From Halorubrum sp. Hd13 (GTDB lineage Archaea; Halobacteriota; Halobacteria; Halobacteriales; Haloferacaceae): a stretch of 35,572 nucleotides of DNA. Under the pieces are notes generated by a model that did not search any database, was not told the origin of the DNA, and worked only from the letters and a program-made list of their open reading frames with translations. Where the stretch lies: positions 1 through 35,572 of the forward strand of contig NZ_NHOY01000055.1 of the NCBI RefSeq assembly GCF_002252755.1, in the 5' to 3' direction. The translations under genes and the position numbers were made by a program. Below, piece by piece: positions 26,350-35,176 of the stretch. Every line of letters starts with the position of its first letter. Position 1 is the stretch's first letter.

Positions 26350-26400
26350 ATGACCGCTCGAAACGACGACCACCGAGGGCACGACGGGGGAGACCGATGA
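26350..26400 (+). CDS. Possible 16-codon upstream ORF
   Basis: ATG at 26350 opens a 16-residue frame (MTARNDDHRGHDGGDR) that ends in TGA at 26398-26400, sharing the ATGA at 26397-26400 with the start of the zinc deacylase gene. A CATAAAC TATA-like box at 26312-26318 would put the transcript start just upstream. It may couple translation of the deacylase, or be chance. Confidence 0.25.
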   Translation: MTARNDDHRGHDGGDR

Positions 26401-27446
26401 AGGTCGGCACGGCCGAGGCCGGCCCCGGCGAGACGGCGACCGGGCACCGGACGGTGACGGAGCTCCCGGTCGGGGGGTCAGAGGACCTCCCGGTGACGGT
26501 GCTCAACGGCGGCGAGACCGGTCCGACGGTGTGGGTAACGGGCACGATCCACGGCGACGAGCCGACCGGAACGGCGGTGATACACGACCTCTCGGAGCGA
26601 GTCGACGTCGCCGAGCTCGCGGGGGCGGTCGTCTGTCTCCCGGTGATGAACCCCACGGGGTTCCGAACCGCCTCCCGGACGTCCTCCTATCACGGCGACG
26701 ACCCCAACCGCTACTTCGGTCGTGACGACGGCTCGAAGACGCCGCCGCGCGTCCAACAGGTGATCTGCGACCGGATATACGACGACATCCGCGCGACGGC
26801 CGACGCGCTCGTCTCGCTTCACACCTCGTGGGTCGCGACCCACCCATACACCATTCAGCCGCGGGTCTCGTACGGCGAGGACCGGAGCGTCTCGGACGCG
26901 GCGGTGCTCCGCGACCGGCTCATCGAACTGACGGAGGCCTTCGGGCTGCCGGTCGTCAACCAGTTCCCGCCGGACGAGACCGAGACCCGCGATCTCCAGC
27001 ACTCGCTCAGCGGCGCGGCCGTCGCCGACGGGATCCTCGCGTTCACGCCGGAGCTCGGCGGCCGGCTCGTCGTCGAGCGCGACGTCGTCGCGGCGGCCGT
27101 CGACGGCGTCTGGAACGTCCTCCACGCGCTCGAAATGGTTGACCGGCCCGCCGACCGGCACCCCGAGTTCGCGTTCGACCGCGACGGCGACCTCAGGCGG
27201 TTCGACGGTCCCCACACCGACGTCGCGGGGATCGTCCGCTATCGGGCGACGGAGGGCGACTTCGTCGAGGCGGGCGACGTCGTCGCCGAAATCGTCGACC
27301 AGCACGGCGAGCTGAAGTCCGAAGTCGCCGCCGACCGCGACGGATACGTCCTCAGCCGCCGCGAGCGCGCCGCGGTGTACGAGAACGACGTGCTACTCGA
27401 CATGGCGGTCCCCGACGACGACCCGCTGTTGGTCGAGTCGGAGTGA
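26397..27446 (+). CDS. AstE/AspA-family zinc deacylase (M14-like)
   Basis: 349 aa. Zinc ligands HGDE (His52, Glu55) and SLHTS (His142), with NPTGF and DDPNRYF arginine-bearing loops (Arg ~105) and TPELGG carrying the catalytic Glu, match succinylglutamate desuccinylase/aspartoacylase proteins. The C-terminal ~90 residues (HTDVAGIVRYRATEGDFVEAGD) form the beta barrel that caps this family. It removes an acyl group from an N-acyl amino acid or peptide in the cytosol; substrate is inferred. Near the peptidases and importer, it fits peptide or N-acylamino-acid use. A GGGGGAGA purine stretch upstream of ATG 26397 could act as ribosome-binding site. Confidence 0.85.
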   Translation: MKVGTAEAGPGETATGHRTVTELPVGGSEDLPVTVLNGGETGPTVWVTGTIHGDEPTGTAVIHDLSERVDVAELAGAVVCLPVMNPTGFRTASRTSSYHGDDPNRYFGRDDGSKTPPRVQQVICDRIYDDIRATADALVSLHTSWVATHPYTIQPRVSYGEDRSVSDAAVLRDRLIELTEAFGLPVVNQFPPDETETRDLQHSLSGAAVADGILAFTPELGGRLVVERDVVAAAVDGVWNVLHALEMVDRPADRHPEFAFDRDGDLRRFDGPHTDVAGIVRYRATEGDFVEAGDVVAEIVDQHGELKSEVAADRDGYVLSRRERAAVYENDVLLDMAVPDDDPLLVESE

Positions 27447-27698: not shown

Positions 27699-27724
27699 TA
27701 TCTCCTGAAATGGTAGGCCGTTCC

Positions 27725-29446
27725 ATGGTCCTGTCAGACGAGGACGTTAATCGACGCAAGTTCCTGAAAGCGACGACTGCGGGCGGTACGGCCGGTCTCA
27801 CGGCCCTCGCCGGCTGTAGCGGCGGCGACGGCGGCGACGGCGGCGACGGCGGCGACGGCGGCGACGGCAACGACAGCAGCGAGGACGGCAGCGACGGCGG
27901 CGACGAAGCCGGCAACGAGGGAAGTAACCTCCCGACGTACACCTACGTCAACAACGCGCAGAGCTACAACCCACCGCGACACGACGCGATCAACCTCATC
28001 GCGAGCCAGTTCGGTGACGAGCTCGGCCTCGACATGGAGGTCGACGTGCTCGAGTGGGGGACGCTGTTCAGTCGCGTCTCCCAGGAGTACAACTACAGCT
28101 TCGCGACGTGGCACACGTTCTTCGTCTCGGAGCCGGTGACCGAGCTGAACAACCTGTTCAACTCGGGGAACACCGACCCCGGCGAGGGCAACTACTCGGG
28201 GTACGAGAACCCCGACCTCGACGAGCTGATGGGCAACTACCTGGGCGAGCCGGACGCCGACACCCGGATCGACCAGTGTCACGAGATCCAGCAGATCCTG
28301 ATGGACGACGTGCCGACGATGCCCATTACCCAGATGCCCCAGGCGGCCATCTTCAACAGCAACCAGGTGAGCAACTGGCAGGCGGACCTCGCGAACGGGT
28401 TCAACTCGTACTGGACGATGATCAACCTGGAGATGGAGGGCGACACGAGCACCCTGAAGGGGTACTGGCCGGAGACGCTCTCGACGATGAACGTGCTCGG
28501 GCACAACGACGAGAGCAAGCACGTCTACCAGTTCAACATGATGTACGACTTCCTGGTCCAGCTCAACAACAACGCCGAGCCGGACCCGGAAGTCAGCCTC
28601 GCGACCGACTGGAACCGCGTCGACGAGACCACGATGGAGTACACGATCCGGACCGACCACTCGTGGCACGACGGCGAGGACCTCACGGCCGAGGACGTCG
28701 CGTTCACGTACAACTACATCAACGACAACGAGGTGCCGCTGTACTCCACGCAGTCGCAGTACATCGACAGCGCGGAGGTCGTCGACGAGGAGACGGTTCG
28801 GATCAACATGGCCGAGGCGCTCGGGCCGTTCAACCTCGCGGTCGCGAACCTCCTCCCGATCATCCCCGAGCACATGTGGGCCGACCGGGACAACCCCAGT
28901 CAGGCGAACATCGAGGAGCCCGTCGGGAGCGGTCCGATGATGTTCGACTACTGGGAGCAGGGCAGCGAGTTCGGGATGGTCAAGTTCGACGACCACTTCG
29001 CGCCCGTCAGCTTCGAAGAGCGCTTCTGGCGCGTCATCCCCGAGGCGTCGACGGTGTGGGAGAACCTCATCAACGGCGAACTCAACTACGAGCCGTTCGG
29101 CCGGATCGACCGCCAGCTCGACCAGAACCAGGACAACGAGAACATCGGGACCCAGTTCCAAACCGCTCCGACGTTCTGGATGTTCACCCCCAACGAGCGC
29201 CAGGAGGGACTCGGCGACGTCCAGATGCGGAAGGCGCTGGTCGAGGCCATCCCGCGGACGGCCATCGTCGACCAGATCCTGTTCGGCTTCCCGGAGCGCG
29301 GGTTCAACATCGTCTCGCCGGCGTTCGGGCCGCTCCACACCGAGGACGTCACCGAGTACGAGGAGAGCATCGACGCCGCCCGGAGCCGGCTCGAGGAGGC
29401 CGGCTACACGTGGAACGACGACGGCGCCATTCAGGCGCCTGAGTAG
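27725..29446 (+). CDS. dppA: Circularly permuted SBP_bac_5 (DppA/OppA-type) lipoprotein
   Basis: 573 aa. RRKF (10-13) and lipobox LAGC (Cys31) indicate a Tat lipoprotein; a GGD-repeat linker runs to ~residue 68. The domain order is unusual. Residues ~71-238 match the canonical C-terminal lobe of DppA: NPPRHDAINLIASQ, then LEWGTLFSRV, GNYSGYENPDLDELM, RIDQCHEIQQILMDDVPTMP and a terminal FNSYWTMINLE strand. Residues ~243-573 match the canonical N-terminal part: TLKGYWPETLSTMN, MMYDFLVQLN, SWHDGEDLTAEDVAFTYN, PVGSGPMMFDYWEQG, GDVQMRKALVEAI and AARSRLEEAGYTW at the very end. The native C- and N-termini are joined by a few residues (GDTS). It binds oligopeptides or related solutes outside the membrane for the permeases encoded next. 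Confidence 0.9.
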   Translation: MVLSDEDVNRRKFLKATTAGGTAGLTALAGCSGGDGGDGGDGGDGGDGNDSSEDGSDGGDEAGNEGSNLPTYTYVNNAQSYNPPRHDAINLIASQFGDELGLDMEVDVLEWGTLFSRVSQEYNYSFATWHTFFVSEPVTELNNLFNSGNTDPGEGNYSGYENPDLDELMGNYLGEPDADTRIDQCHEIQQILMDDVPTMPITQMPQAAIFNSNQVSNWQADLANGFNSYWTMINLEMEGDTSTLKGYWPETLSTMNVLGHNDESKHVYQFNMMYDFLVQLNNNAEPDPEVSLATDWNRVDETTMEYTIRTDHSWHDGEDLTAEDVAFTYNYINDNEVPLYSTQSQYIDSAEVVDEETVRINMAEALGPFNLAVANLLPIIPEHMWADRDNPSQANIEEPVGSGPMMFDYWEQGSEFGMVKFDDHFAPVSFEERFWRVIPEASTVWENLINGELNYEPFGRIDRQLDQNQDNENIGTQFQTAPTFWMFTPNERQEGLGDVQMRKALVEAIPRTAIVDQILFGFPERGFNIVSPAFGPLHTEDVTEYEESIDAARSRLEEAGYTWNDDGAIQAPE

Positions 29447-29519: not shown

Positions 29520-30503
29520 ATGGGAAAAGCTAGTTTCGTCGTCAGGCGCACGCTCCAGCTCGTGGTGACGCTGTGGGCCGTCGGGACGGTCCTGTTCGGG
29601 CTGTTCAGGCTCATGCCCGGCGATCCGACGTCGTACGTGATCTCCTCGCAGATGACGCAGGAGGCCCGCAGACAGCTCATCGAGAGCTACGGACTCAACG
29701 ACCCGTTGTACATCCAGTACTTCCGGTTCCTCGAGAACCTCGTCGTGTTGAACTTCGGCCAGTCGTTCCACTCGAACCAACCGGTCACCGACGTCATCGC
29801 GACGTACCTGCCGAACACGCTCGTGCTCATGCTGACGGCGTTCGTCATCGCGTACGCCATCGGCATCACGCTCGGGGTGTTGTCGGGGTGGTACCGCGGC
29901 TCCCGCTTCGAGCGGAGCACGGTCATCACCGCCCTGACCGCCCGCAGCGTGCCGACGTTCTACGTCGGCCTCATCGTGCTGTGGATCTTCGGCGCGACCT
30001 TCGGCGTCATCCCGATGAGCGGGATGACCAGTCTCGGCACCGGCGGGCAGAGCACTGGGTTCCTCGATATGGTGTTCACGATGGACTTCGTCCGTCACCT
30101 CATCGCCCCGGCGGCGGTGCTCGCCTTCTACTACATGGGGTACCCGCTGTTGATCATGCGCTCGAGCATGCTCGAGGTGCTCTCCGAGGACTTCATCGAC
30201 GTCTGTCGCGCGAAGGGACTCAAAGAGCGGACGATCATGTTCAAACACGCCGCCCGCAACGCCCTCCTGCCGATCATCACCGCGGCGGCGATCGCCCTCG
30301 GCTACGCCGTCGGGGGGAGCGTCCTCATCGAGACGGTGTTCGCGTGGCCCGGTATCGGCCGGGAGATGGTCCGCGCGGTGCTCCGACGCGACTTCCCCGT
30401 CGCGCAGGGGACGTTCATCGTGCTCGCGTCGACCATCATCTTCCTGAACTTCCTCGCGGACCTCGCGTACGGCTACCTCGACCCGCGGGTGACTTACGAC
30501 TAA
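29520..30503 (+). CDS. dppB: Peptide ABC transporter permease (DppB/OppB type)
   Basis: 327 aa, six predicted membrane segments. The N-terminal RTLQLVVTLWAVGTVLFGLF helix followed by RLMPGDPT and GLNDPLYIQYFRFLENLVVLNFGQS is the DppB/OppB signature. The cytosolic EAA loop that docks the ATPases is DVCRAKGLKERTIMFKHAAR (from ~residue 223). The end LADLAYGYLDPRVTYD is also family-typical. It forms the membrane channel with the next gene's product, in the cytoplasmic membrane. Five bases separate it from dppC. No unusual features. Confidence 0.95.
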   Translation: MGKASFVVRRTLQLVVTLWAVGTVLFGLFRLMPGDPTSYVISSQMTQEARRQLIESYGLNDPLYIQYFRFLENLVVLNFGQSFHSNQPVTDVIATYLPNTLVLMLTAFVIAYAIGITLGVLSGWYRGSRFERSTVITALTARSVPTFYVGLIVLWIFGATFGVIPMSGMTSLGTGGQSTGFLDMVFTMDFVRHLIAPAAVLAFYYMGYPLLIMRSSMLEVLSEDFIDVCRAKGLKERTIMFKHAARNALLPIITAAAIALGYAVGGSVLIETVFAWPGIGREMVRAVLRRDFPVAQGTFIVLASTIIFLNFLADLAYGYLDPRVTYD

Positions 30504-30507
30504 CACA

Positions 30508-31488
30508 ATGGCCCAAAAAGAACAATCGAGCCAGTCGATATTCACCGACCTCGACGACGCCAGTACCGACGCGGAGGTCAACAAGTGGCAGCGGACGTTC
30601 CGCCTCTGGCGGGAGACCCTCCGAGAACACTGGGGGATGCTGACCGACGAGCTGTCGGTCAAGCTCTCGATGCTCACGGTGGCGGGGTTCGTCGTCATCG
30701 CCATCTTCGCGCCGTACATCGCGACCCACCAGCCCCTCGTCCGGCAGTACCAGGGCGACGCCGGGGTCCTCATCGACAAGTGGGTGGAGCCGTCGCTGCT
30801 CGGCGCGGACTCCGAGTACCTGCTCGGAACGACGGCCGCGGGCTACGACATCTTCAGTCAGCTCGTGTACGGCACGCGCGCGGCGCTGATGGTCGGCATC
30901 ATCGCCGCGGTGTTCACCGCGGGGATCGGTACCCTCGTCGGGCTCGTCGCGGGCTACTACGGCGGGAAGGTCGACGACGCGCTGATGCGGCTCGTCGACT
31001 TCCTCTACGGGATGCCGCTGCTCCCGACGGTCATCGTCCTCGTCGCGGTGTTGGGGCCGAACCTCTGGAACATCATCCTCGCGCTGATCGTCCTCCAGTG
31101 GCGCTCGACCGCCCGCGTCATCCGCTCGCAGTCGCTGTCGCTCCGTGAGCGCCCGTTCGTGAAGGCCGCAGAGGTCGCCGGCGCCAGCGACTGGCACATC
31201 ATCAGCAGACACCTCGCGCCCAACGTGCTCCCGATGACGTTCCTCTACGGGTCGTTCGGCATCGCGTGGGCCATCCTCGCCGAGGCCGGCGTCTCCTTCA
31301 TCGGTCTCGGCGACCCCAACACGGTCTCGTGGGGAACGATGCTGCAGGCCTCCCGCGCCTACTCCGCGCTCTCGTTCGGGGCGTGGTGGTGGTTCGTGCC
31401 GCCGGGAATCTGCATCGGCCTGCTCGTCATCAGCGGTTTCCTCATCGGCCGCGGCTACGAAGAGATCACGAACCCCAAACTACAATGA
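30508..31488 (+). CDS. dppC: Peptide ABC transporter permease (DppC/OppC type)
   Basis: 326 aa. A polar N-terminal region (residues 1-50, longer than in most bacterial DppC) leads into five to six membrane segments. LLGTTAAGYDIFSQLVYGTR (near 105) is the DppC/OppC hallmark; the EAA loop is EVAGASDWHIISRHLAPNVL, and AILAEAGVSFIGLG...VSWGTML follows as expected. Partner of dppB; with it forms the heterodimeric pore. Its stop overlaps the ATPase gene start (ATGA, 31485-31488), so translation is coupled. Confidence 0.95.
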   Translation: MAQKEQSSQSIFTDLDDASTDAEVNKWQRTFRLWRETLREHWGMLTDELSVKLSMLTVAGFVVIAIFAPYIATHQPLVRQYQGDAGVLIDKWVEPSLLGADSEYLLGTTAAGYDIFSQLVYGTRAALMVGIIAAVFTAGIGTLVGLVAGYYGGKVDDALMRLVDFLYGMPLLPTVIVLVAVLGPNLWNIILALIVLQWRSTARVIRSQSLSLRERPFVKAAEVAGASDWHIISRHLAPNVLPMTFLYGSFGIAWAILAEAGVSFIGLGDPNTVSWGTMLQASRAYSALSFGAWWWFVPPGICIGLLVISGFLIGRGYEEITNPKLQ

Positions 31489-32525
31489 GCCAATTGGAAG
31501 TCGAAGACCTCGAAGTCTACTACGAGACCGAAGACGGGCCGGCACAGGCGGTCGACGGCGTCTCCTTCGAACTCGAACAGGGGGAGAACCTCGGCATCGT
31601 CGGCGAGTCGGGCTGCGGGAAGACCACGCTCGCGAAGGCGATCATCGGTATCCTCCCCGACGCCGGCTACATCAACAACGGGAGCATCAACTTCAAAGGC
31701 GACGACCTGACGGAGATGCCCGAGCCCCAGCGCCGCCGCCTCAAGTGGGAGGAGATCTCCATGATCGCCCAGTCGGCGATGAACTCGCTGGATCCGGTGT
31801 ACACCATCCGCGAGCAGATCGTCGAGGCGATCGAGACCCACCGGCCGGGAACCGGCCGCGTGGAATCCGAGGAGATCGTCACGGAGATGTTCGAGCTCGT
31901 CGGGTTGGACCCGGAGCGCGCCGACGACTACCCCCACCAGTTCTCCGGGGGGATGCGCCAGCGCGCCATGATCGCGATGGCGCTCGCGCTCGAACCGTCG
32001 CTGATGCTGGCGGACGAGCCCACCACGGCGCTCGACGTCATCATGCAAGACCAGATCCTCAAGCGGATCGGCTCGATCCAAGAGGAGATCAACTCCTCGA
32101 TGCTAGTCATCACGCACGACGTGAGCGTCGTCGCCGAGACCTGTGACCGCGTCATCGTGATGTACGCCGGGAAGGTCGCCGAGGAAGGTCCGGTCGAAGA
32201 GATATTCGACCAACCGTATCACCCGTACACGATCGGGCTGAAGCGCGCGTTCCCGAACATCCGACAGAGCAACCAAGACCTCCTCTCCATCTCGGGGTAC
32301 CCGCCGGAACTCATCGATCCGCCGCAGGGGTGCCGGTTCGCCGAGCGCTGTCCGATGGCGACGGACCGGTGCCGAGAGGAGGAGCCCGAGGCCCACTACG
32401 AGAACGGGCTCCGGTCGTACTGTCACTACGCGGACGAGATCGACACCGAGCTTCGGCCGTACGCGGATGACCCCGGGACGTGGAACCAGACGACCGCCGC
32501 CCCCGACGGTGGTGTCGAGGAATGA
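31485..32525 (+). CDS. dppD: Peptide ABC transporter ATPase (DppD/OppD type)
   Basis: 346 aa. Walker [10 protein letters not shown], signature FSGGMRQR, Walker B LMLADEPTTALDV and switch His in LVITHDVS are all present, so it should hydrolyse ATP. The C-terminal oligopeptide-transporter extension contains CRFAERCPMATDRC and a further Cys, as in DppD/OppD, where such cysteines can bind an Fe-S cluster. Cytosolic, docks on dppB/dppC. Start ATG 31485 is set by the overlap with dppC; the longer upstream frame is not coding. Ends overlapping dppF (ATGA at 32522-32525). Confidence 0.95.
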   Translation: MSQLEVEDLEVYYETEDGPAQAVDGVSFELEQGENLGIVGESGCGKTTLAKAIIGILPDAGYINNGSINFKGDDLTEMPEPQRRRLKWEEISMIAQSAMNSLDPVYTIREQIVEAIETHRPGTGRVESEEIVTEMFELVGLDPERADDYPHQFSGGMRQRAMIAMALALEPSLMLADEPTTALDVIMQDQILKRIGSIQEEINSSMLVITHDVSVVAETCDRVIVMYAGKVAEEGPVEEIFDQPYHPYTIGLKRAFPNIRQSNQDLLSISGYPPELIDPPQGCRFAERCPMATDRCREEEPEAHYENGLRSYCHYADEIDTELRPYADDPGTWNQTTAAPDGGVEE

Positions 32526-33613
32526 GCGGCAACGACGTCCTCCTCGAAGTCGAGGACCTGAAGAAACACTTCAAGGTCAATCAGGGCTGGATCGCGAGCC
32601 TGATGGAGTCGTTCGGCGGCGGCGGGCCCGACTACGTCCACGCGGTCGACGGGGTGAGCTTCGAGCTCCGCCAGGGGGAGACGCTCGGGCTGGCGGGCGA
32701 GTCGGGCTGCGGCAAGACCACGACCGGCATGTCGATGGTGAAGCTCCACGAGCCGACCGCCGGCGACATCGTCTACGACGACACGCGGCTCTCCGAGGCG
32801 AGCGACGCCGAGATCAAGCGGTTCAGGCAGAACGCGCAGATGATCTTCCAAGACCCCTTCGAGAGCCTGAACCCGCGGATGACGGTGTACGACACCGTCG
32901 CCGAGCCGCTGCGGATCCACGACATCCGCAACGAGACGGCGCGGGTCCAGCGCGCCCTGGAGTTCGCGGAGCTGCTCCCGCCCGAACAGTACTTCAACCA
33001 GTACCCGCACGAGCTGTCGGGCGGCCAGCGTCAGCGTGTCGCCATCGCGCGGGCGCTCGTGCTCGACCCGGACTTCATCGTCGCCGACGAGCCGGTGTCG
33101 ATGCTCGACGTGAGCCTCCGTGCGGGCGTCCTCTCGCTTCTCGACCGGATGACCGAAGAGTTCGGCCTCTCAGTCGTCTACATCAGCCACGACCTCTCGC
33201 TGCTCCGGCACATGTGCGACCGGCTGGCGATCATGTACATGGGAAAGATCGTCGAGAAGGGCCCCACCGACCAGGTCATCGAGAACCCCCAGCACCCGTA
33301 CACCCAGGCGCTCATCAACGCGGTCCCGGTCCCCGACCCCTCGGTGGGACGGGAGCGCGTCGAGCTCCAAGGGGAGGTCGGCGACATCGTCGACGTCCCG
33401 ACCGGCTGTCGGTTCAAAGACCGGTGTCCCGACTACATCGGCGACGTCTGCGACCAGGTGGTGCCGCCGCTCGAGGCGAAGACGGCGTTCGAACAGGAGG
33501 TCGCCTGTCACCTCTACGAGAGCGCGGAGGGGTACGACCCCTACGAGGAGCTCGAGGGGAGGCCGTCCGCGGCGGCCGGTGACGGCGCCGAGTCGACGCC
33601 GGCCGACGACTAG
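32522..33613 (+). CDS. dppF: Peptide ABC transporter ATPase (DppF/OppF type)
   Basis: 363 aa. Walker [10 protein letters not shown], signature LSGGQRQR, Walker [15 protein letters not shown] and the switch His in [11 protein letters not shown]. After the N-terminal strand there is a short insertion (residues ~18-38, [20 protein letters not shown]), typical of the OppF branch. C-terminal Cys residues ([15 protein letters not shown]) again form the peptide-transporter motif. A tail of ~25 acidic/Ala residues ends the protein. Partner of dppD in the ATPase heterodimer. It is the last gene of the operon and is convergent with the PmbA-type gene, five bases apart, so the two transcripts probably overlap. 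Confidence 0.95.
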
Positions 33614-33618
33614 GCCCG

Positions 33619-35079
33619 TTACTGCTTCTCGCGGATCGGCGCCGTCAGTCGGACGCCCGGCGCGGTCACCGCGAACGGGAGCCGCGACTTGTGTTTCTCG
33701 CAGACGCCCGTCACGGTTTCGCGGACGGTCCCGATCCGCGATATCGTCTCCAACACCTCGGGCGTGTAGTCCACGGCGAGCCCGTCGACGCGGCCGGCCC
33801 GCGCTCCGCCGTCGAGCCGGTACGCCTCGGCGACCGGGAACTCCGCGGAACCGCAGTCGGGCCGGTCCTCGCTCTTCCGGTCGATGTCCCTCGCGTAGAG
33901 GGCGCTCGGCGGGAACAACCCCTCCCGCTGGACGCGTTCGAACTCGTCGCGGAACCACGGCTCCCCGAACCGCTCGACGTACACGTCGGCGCCCTCGCGG
34001 AGCGCTCCGGGGTCGGCGTCGCCGGCGCCGACTTCGAGGTGGCGGGCGTGGATCCGCGGCGGCTCGGCGAACCCGAGGCTCGGGACGCTGTTGCCCGCCG
34101 GATAGGCGTCCTCCTCGGCGGCGGTGGTGGTGTTGTGGAGCCGTCGCTCGATCCGCCCGTCCGAGACCAGCCGCGTCGGCGTGGTCGGCTTCACCTCGGT
34201 GTCGTAGGCGCGGGCGGCCCACGAGCCGGCGCGGATCCCGTCCTCGATATCGAGGTCGTCGGGACCGATCCGGTCGCCGACGGCGTAGGGGCTCATCCCC
34301 ATGTAGCAGGTGTCGGTCTCGAGGTAGTGCGACACGAAGTGGAACAGCTGGCCGGCCGCTTCAGGGCTCAACGCGACCGTCGCCTCCCCGGACGGCGCGT
34401 CGACCGGGTCGGCGCCCGACAGCGAGCGCGCGTCGGCCGCAGCGGTCGCGAACGCGTCACCCATCTCGTCGAGGAAGGCCGCCCCCGCCGTCGACCCGGC
34501 GTGACGGCTCACCTTCGGCCCGTCGGCGAGCGAGAGGCTGAAATCGACTTTCGCCCGGTCGAGCGTCGTGCGGACGACGCTCCCGGTCGTGGTGCCGACC
34601 GCCTCCTCGACGTGCGCGTCCGTGTAGTTCGCCCACCGGCGGTCGAGGGCGAGGTCGTCCGCCGCCGCGAGCCCGTCCTCCACCGCGGCGACCTTCTCGT
34701 CGAGCGGGCGGGCGTGTATCCCCTCGTCCGCCCAGCCGCCGTGGGTCCCCCGGTGAACCGTGTAGGCGTCGAACCGCCCGGGCTCCTCCTGCGCGAGCAC
34801 CTCGCCGCTCCGGATCGCCCGGTCGGCGGCGTCGCGCAGGCTCTCCTCGTCGAGCGCGTTCGTGTAGCGGTAGTCGGCCGCGCCGTCGGCGAAGACGCGG
34901 AGCCACACGCCCGTCTCGGTGAACTCCGTCGCGTTCCGGGGGCCGTCGCCGGTGACGACGAGGTCGGTCTTCTCCTGGTAGACGCCGCCGACCTCCGCGT
35001 ACGACACCGCGTCGTCCGCCTCGAACTCGTCGAGTAGCCAGTCCATCGCGTCCGACACGCTCTCGCGTCCGTCGCTCAT
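33619..35079 (-). CDS. PmbA/TldD-family protein (PmbA-type, no HExxxH)
   Basis: 486 aa from ATG 35079 (in-frame start at 35100 possible). N-terminal TGVWLRVFADGAADYRYTNA is the TldD/PmbA substrate strand region, and LSPEAAGQLFHFVSHYLE (residues ~245-262) aligns with the zinc helix of TldD. The catalytic HExxxH is absent: the segment reads H-F-V-S-H. That is the PmbA pattern, the non-metal partner of TldD in a heterodimeric metalloprotease that trims small peptides. No TldD partner is in the window. Its C-terminal part is divergent from E. coli PmbA, so I give no symbol. Convergent with the importer operon. Confidence 0.82.
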   Translation of the reverse strand: MSDGRESVSDAMDWLLDEFEADDAVSYAEVGGVYQEKTDLVVTGDGPRNATEFTETGVWLRVFADGAADYRYTNALDEESLRDAADRAIRSGEVLAQEEPGRFDAYTVHRGTHGGWADEGIHARPLDEKVAAVEDGLAAADDLALDRRWANYTDAHVEEAVGTTTGSVVRTTLDRAKVDFSLSLADGPKVSRHAGSTAGAAFLDEMGDAFATAAADARSLSGADPVDAPSGEATVALSPEAAGQLFHFVSHYLETDTCYMGMSPYAVGDRIGPDDLDIEDGIRAGSWAARAYDTEVKPTTPTRLVSDGRIERRLHNTTTAAEEDAYPAGNSVPSLGFAEPPRIHARHLEVGAGDADPGALREGADVYVERFGEPWFRDEFERVQREGLFPPSALYARDIDRKSEDRPDCGSAEFPVAEAYRLDGGARAGRVDGLAVDYTPEVLETISRIGTVRETVTGVCEKHKSRLPFAVTAPGVRLTAPIREKQ

Positions 35080-35176
35080 GCTCGTGGTATCTCCGTTCAC
35101 TCACATGAAACCCCGGACTCTCCGGCGGCGATTTCCGGGGACGGGGCCCGGACCGGCGCGGAGCGCGTCCCGCCGA

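Follow-up and report, generated by a model that had tools for sequence, protein, structure and literature searches.

The first gene of an importer operon in Halorubrum sp. Hd13 very likely encodes a genuine and working substrate-binding protein (SBP) of the DppA/OppA/NikA superfamily (PF00496, "cluster C") whose chain is circularly permuted, its activity in transport being inferred. Compared with the canonical order, the old N- and C-termini are linked by a short joint, and the chain now begins and ends in the loop that follows the EAG helix. This arrangement, here called type A, is widespread across taxa. The gene was studied in a stretch of 35,572 nucleotides, hereafter the window, and the features given for it below lie on its plus strand unless stated otherwise.

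Order of the parts in the window protein

The gene occupies a single open frame without internal stops (27710-29446, 578 aa), in which the ATG at 27725 is the most likely start, giving a permuted family-5 SBP of 573 aa (27725-29446), and 27710 is an alternative one. At the N-terminus, a Tat signal (NRRKFLK) and the lipobox LAGC span 27725-27817, with the lipidation Cys at 27815-27817. The NCBIfam model for the TAT signal domain (TIGR01409) was passed with 17.8 bits against a cut-off of 16.7, while Pfam PF10518 scored 18.0 bits at the signal, under its own cut-off. From the presence of RRKFLK and LAGC the protein is predicted to be a Tat lipoprotein, lipidation being inferred from sequence. A flexible Gly/Asp-rich linker follows (27818-27928); GGDGGD repeats run through it, and its length differs among relatives.

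Family membership is clear, as PF00496 (SBP_bac_5) scored 185.7 bits against a gathering threshold of 32.4 (E-value 1.8e-54) and was, apart from the signal sequence and one weak DUF match, the only Pfam family found on the protein. The collinear order of that family is nonetheless not met, which makes the protein a homologous member with a permuted topology. The profile matches twice in swapped order, residues 296-573 corresponding to profile positions 5-285 of 368 and residues 80-155 to positions 291-366, the latter when 27917-28441 was searched separately. The same swap appeared in phmmer searches of PDB chains, where query residues 275-573 of the window protein aligned with residues 49-352 of AppA (1xoc) and query residues 84-202 with residues 367-482 of the same chain, and likewise in matches to NikZ-II, CtaP, and others. 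No experimentally solved permuted member was among the PDB matches shown by the searches.

Half-profiles built for the two parts placed the boundaries more closely, with the C-part at residues 74-240, the N-part at residues 248-578, and 7 residues between them. The C-part (27929-28429), which is the canonical C-terminal third, starting with the strand ahead of NP..R and ending with the terminal one, is here N-terminal, and the N-part (28451-29443), which is the canonical N-terminal two thirds with the SWHDG block, VGSGP, MRKAL, and EEAGYTW, is here C-terminal and ends at the new C-terminus. Between the profile matches, the joint of the old termini covers 28430-28450; judged by eye, the physical joint is four residues, EGDT. 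In most type A proteins the joint is 7-10 residues long.

AlphaFold2, supplied with 24 permuted homologues, returned one confident fold (pLDDT 89.5, pTM 0.88). Foldseek, which aligns sequentially, found as PDB neighbors of this model NikZ, AppA, and DppA, all cluster C SBPs, the best matches covering about 350 columns of 511 residues (about two thirds) with a TMq of about 0.5. Partial coverage and a score of this size are expected, because a sequential aligner cannot wrap round a permuted protein. We infer from the predicted model that the protein adopts the two-lobed Venus flytrap.

An earlier note, made without database searches, had read the protein as a circular permutation with segments at residues ~71-238 and ~243-573, old termini joined by ~4 residues, and the chain ends moved to the loop that connects the EAG helix to the strand after it. 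The permutation is upheld by the swapped PF00496 and PDB matches, the half-profiles, and the AlphaFold2 model; the joint and the position of the new termini also held, and the boundaries were right to within a few residues. Its prediction that a PF00496 search would give two matches in swapped order was borne out, and neither observation named as a refutation was found, be it a single collinear PF00496 match or, as judged by sequential alignment, a better non-permuted structural match.

Operon partners and putative ligand

The window gene heads a complete importer operon of the peptide/opine/nickel kind, meeting the criterion of BPD_transp permeases together with oligo_HPY ATPases. Downstream of the SBP gene lie genes for a DppB-like permease (29520-30503; BPD_transp_1 3e-40, BPD_transp_1_N), a DppC-like permease (30508-31488; BPD_transp_1 2e-25), a DppD-type ATPase (31485-32525), and a DppF-type ATPase (32522-33613), both ATPases carrying ABC_tran and oligo_HPY. 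The later genes of the operon share overlapping start and stop codons; the start of the DppD-type gene was inferred from an ATGA overlap and that of the DppF-type gene likewise from its overlap. Two flanking genes likely belong to the same pathway, namely an upstream AstE/AspA-type deacylase (26397-27446; PF24827 1e-18), a family also found near the orthologous operon in Haloprofundus, and a TldD/PmbA-type metallopeptidase on the minus strand (33619-35100; PF19289 1e-18), a type of gene that Natrialba, Halorubrum cibi, and Haloprofundus also carry close to their orthologous operons.

In 25 of 33 related type A loci (L062-L068, L070-L094, and L121), the SBP gene has both permease genes and one or more ATPase genes as neighbors. 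Four of the other eight are cut by a contig end, L073 and L077 have a partial set, and L093 and L121 have none in the stretch examined. Many type A loci have genes nearby for M28 or S66 peptidases, TldD/PmbA proteins, AstE-type deacylases, creatininase-type amidohydrolases, or hydantoinases/oxoprolinases, and genes for M24 peptidases and Asp/Glu/hydantoin racemases were also seen in the neighborhood. M28 peptidase genes were seen beside permuted-SBP operons in haloarchaea, Alphaproteobacteria, and Brevibacillus (L063, L067, L069, L081, and L082).

In DppA, Asp436 binds the amino end of the dipeptide, with Arg383 as its partner. The window protein aligns a Phe in the Asp436 column, and because this residue is not conserved, the ligand is perhaps no ordinary peptide; for Arg383 the alignment offered no assignable position. 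The DppA equivalog model NF043070 was not met (51.4 bits against a cut-off of 1005), nor did any other NCBIfam SBP model reach its cut-off on the window protein. A modified peptide, an N-acyl amino acid, or a cyclic amide is possible as the ligand, which in the absence of binding data is a guess. In the mechanism we infer, the lipid-tethered SBP would capture a small extracellular solute, either peptide-like or containing an amide, and hand it to the DppBC-type permease, the DppDF-type ATPases would drive import, and the solute would feed the peptidases and deacylases encoded nearby. The SBP of the dipeptide importer in E. coli closes around its ligand and binds to the permease, whose DppB scoop motif enters the SBP cleft (PMC12136057); by analogy, docking may proceed in a like manner here.

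Spread, cut sites, and origins of the permutation

A junction-spanning query (residues 161-407, 247 residues) was searched in 391 sampled Halobacteria genomes. Of some 150 matches inspected, 148 cross the joint, and these come from at least 121 of the 391 genomes, a tally counted by hand that includes weaker full-span matches and is a lower bound. All 247 query residues are matched by 32 other haloarchaeal genes at 45-89% identity, and since these and the weaker full-span matches cross the junction, chance is excluded. Of the six family-5 SBP genes in the Hd13 genome alone, PF00496 shows three to be collinear; the three permuted ones are the window gene and genes on contigs C50 (656 aa) and C43 (627 aa). 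The C43 gene (L059) and L121 are haloarchaeal type A SBPs whose joint carries a long acidic insert rich in Ala, Thr, and Glu, and L121 appears to be an orphan SBP, as ABC genes are absent from the surrounding stretch examined. The C50 gene (L058) falls with L068 and L088-L090 in a second haloarchaeal permuted subgroup of ~640-675 aa, which includes a Haloferax member.

A permuted SBP is annotated as a single gene in plasmid records, several of which are complete, from Haloprofundus, Haladaptatus, Halorussus, and Natrialba, and tblastn against plasmids also matched Nitratireductor, Maritalea, Roseomonas, Microvirga, and Neorhizobium. A junction-centered scan of GTDB contigs gave full-span matches in Pararhodobacter, Roseibium, Brevibacillus, Dethiosulfatibacter, Clostridiales, Desulfobacterales, Acidiferrobacteraceae, Burkholderiaceae, an actinobacterial MAG, and a Desulfurococcaceae archaeon. 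Type A is thus present, besides Halobacteria, in Proteobacteria (Alpha, Beta, and Gamma), Bacillota, Desulfobacterota, an actinobacterial MAG, and Thermoproteota. When the half-profiles were applied to the GTDB loci, the C-part preceded the N-part in every full-span locus, while those partial matches that could be ordered were canonical except for L121. In a phylum-level sample, permuted forms recurred in Thermoproteota. The Pseudomonadota sample listed no junction-spanning match beyond the genome on which it was centered, and the trait is accordingly sporadic in that phylum. The view that the permutation is an oddity of haloarchaea was rejected on the plasmid and GTDB matches in Bacteria and Thermoproteota.

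The order of parts was tested on the fetched loci with three segment profiles (N1, N2, and C), which revealed the canonical order N1-N2-C, the order C-N1-N2 of the window protein (type A), and a third order, N2-C-N1 (type B). With duplicates counted, the ORFs of these loci comprised 109 in canonical order, 78 of type A, and 23 of type B. Type B, cut after an NPYYW motif, was first met in a Clostridiales MAG (L095, 5176-6903), its gene there preceding one for a DppB-like permease. Sixteen further genomes of the class of L095 have the type B protein conserved from end to end, at 52-77% identity. Type B occurs in Clostridia-type bacteria and in Thermoproteota, where most members bear a stalk and membrane helix at the C-terminus; a single-sequence AlphaFold2 run on a type B protein was useless (pLDDT 35). 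Type B loci observed were L095, L161-L176, L179, L211-L213, L215, L219, L236-L240, and L246. Type C, found in four Thermoproteota genomes (L241-L244, for example L242, 1400-3415), is cut directly before the D..VRqAl helix, so that an N-terminal membrane helix and stalk are followed by a chain that begins at this helix and ends in lgfNf; a CARDB domain was found in the one type C protein scanned. A separate observation concerns a Geothermarchaeota permuted SBP (L093, 94-2406) that continues into two MG2 Ig-like domains and ends in a membrane helix, its new C-terminus serving as the anchor.

If the canonical order is ancestral, three new chain openings imply at least three permutation events. 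The trees, built from rotated sequences in sets of 76 and 87 rows, do not settle how many origins there were. The first tree joins the window group to type A proteins from bacteria and Desulfurococcaceae, although support is modest (82). Type B forms one group (87-89) inside a well-supported set (97-99) that also holds canonical Thermoproteota proteins and the type A protein L093. Approximately unbiased (AU) tests on the 87-row set rejected a single clade of all permuted proteins (p-AU 0.0009) and a single clade of all type A (p-AU 0.0001). On the 76-row set a single clade was not rejected (type A, 0.063; types A and B, 0.15), nor was it on the permease tree (0.64 and 0.60). The choice of groups for these tests was guided in part by a tree already seen, and the trees contain long branches. 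The free permease tree placed the DppB-like partners of most type A proteins together (98, 26 rows, none canonical), those of the C50-like haloarchaeal group in a second set (100), and those of type B in a third (100), but trees joining these sets fit as well or better, so the separations are not firm. Permutation has therefore likely recurred, with the number of origins unsettled given the conflict between the 87-row tree on one side and the 76-row and permease trees on the other. As to how the window protein arose, we infer as the likely route a tandem duplication in which the two copies of an SBP gene fused and the outer parts were then lost.

A bolder reading is that DppA/OppA-type SBPs are topologically plastic, having acquired three or more openings besides the canonical one, more than once independently and in both Archaea and Bacteria, such that all three rotations of N1-N2-C and a further cut inside N2 are in use in importers. 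On balance we lean toward this reading, by a small margin.

Precedents and alternative explanations

The sole precedent we encountered is Tp0684 (TpMglB-2) of Treponema pallidum, a solved, naturally circularly permuted cluster B glucose-binding protein ("Type Ic" or "Cluster Bc"; PMC4990184). It resembles the window protein as a natural permutation of a tethered binding protein of an ABC importer with relatives in several bacteria, but it differs in family, cut site, and ligand, and its authors describe no cluster C members. Assignment of the window protein to cluster Bc, a permuted Type I sugar fold, is not met, since its family and fold neighbors are PF00496 and cluster C. E. coli DppA, B. 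subtilis AppA, and canonical PF00496 proteins share with it the family by sequence, the predicted fold class, and the operon partners; unlike these collinear proteins, it has its termini elsewhere in the chain, and it lacks the amino-binding Asp436 of DppA. The stalked family-5 SBPs of Thermoproteota (L093, L211, L230, and L237), with an Ig or coiled-coil stalk and a transmembrane anchor, are likewise permuted PF00496 proteins; they differ in being C-terminally anchored and in some cases type B, and one clade with the window protein was not shown. No permuted family-5 (cluster C) SBP was found in the open-access literature searched, subscription journals being outside its scope.

Among the alternatives, the one that survives best, though we consider it unlikely, is an adaptive one, also proposed for Tp0684: by shifting the membrane anchor onto the other lobe, the permutation would alter how the protein docks to the permease. 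In DppA, the old termini that are joined here sit in the canonical N-lobe and the new termini in the C-lobe; the lipid anchor would therefore be attached to the other lobe. In favor of this explanation, haloarchaeal and several Bacillota members are predicted lipoproteins (Tat lipoproteins in haloarchaea), and in Thermoproteota types A and B have a C-terminal stalk and transmembrane helix at the new C-terminus, with those of type C being N-terminal. Many alphaproteobacterial type A homologues, however, have a plain signal peptide without a recognizable lipobox or transmembrane anchor, and their permeases are ordinary DppB/DppC homologues. Because so many permuted homologues lack a recognizable anchor, relocation is improbable as a general reason for the permutation, and the corresponding suggestion of the earlier note is weakened.

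We regard as very unlikely a fusion of the C-terminal piece of one SBP gene with the N-terminal piece of another of separate history. Multiple SBP genes per genome are common, and a fusion origin was raised and left open for Tp0684 by its authors (PMC4990184). Against it, the two parts complete exactly one fold with neither overlap nor gap, AlphaFold2 packs them as one protein, and both the order and the short joint are conserved across phyla. An ancestral event joining two paralogous copies remains possible and cannot be distinguished here from the tandem duplication that we favor. It is likewise very unlikely that the permuted SBP is a sensor or an inactive relic rather than an import component; L121, a haloarchaeal paralogue of the C43 type, lacks ABC genes in the stretch examined, but the window gene and most relatives stand first in complete operons and are well conserved, at 45-89% identity. 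An assembly or gene-calling artefact, conceivable in a draft genome of 130 contigs, is all but ruled out by the stop-free frame, the intact downstream operon, the two permuted paralogues in Hd13, and the occurrence of the same order in closed plasmids, annotated there as one CDS, and in more than 100 independent genomes.

Misassembly or frameshift was rejected on the recurrence of the order in closed plasmids and in those genomes, and the earlier note's view of a natural gene held. Haloarchaeal homologues with the same order, for which it had proposed a search, were found, and the permutation proved neither organism-specific nor limited to haloarchaea; the two further cut sites within the PF00496 family lay beyond what that note could see.

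The family, the operon, and the idea of a permuted SBP are known, and it is likely that the permuted PF00496 group and its sister permutations are undescribed. They constitute a large and conserved permuted group, invisible to annotation and with three cut sites, in one of the most abundant transporter families, and the permuted order accounts for doubled or partial PF00496 matches in annotation. Permuted SBPs are also natural templates for permuted biosensors, and together they form a natural experiment that can show which ends of the chain are required for the Venus-flytrap fold and for docking to the permease.
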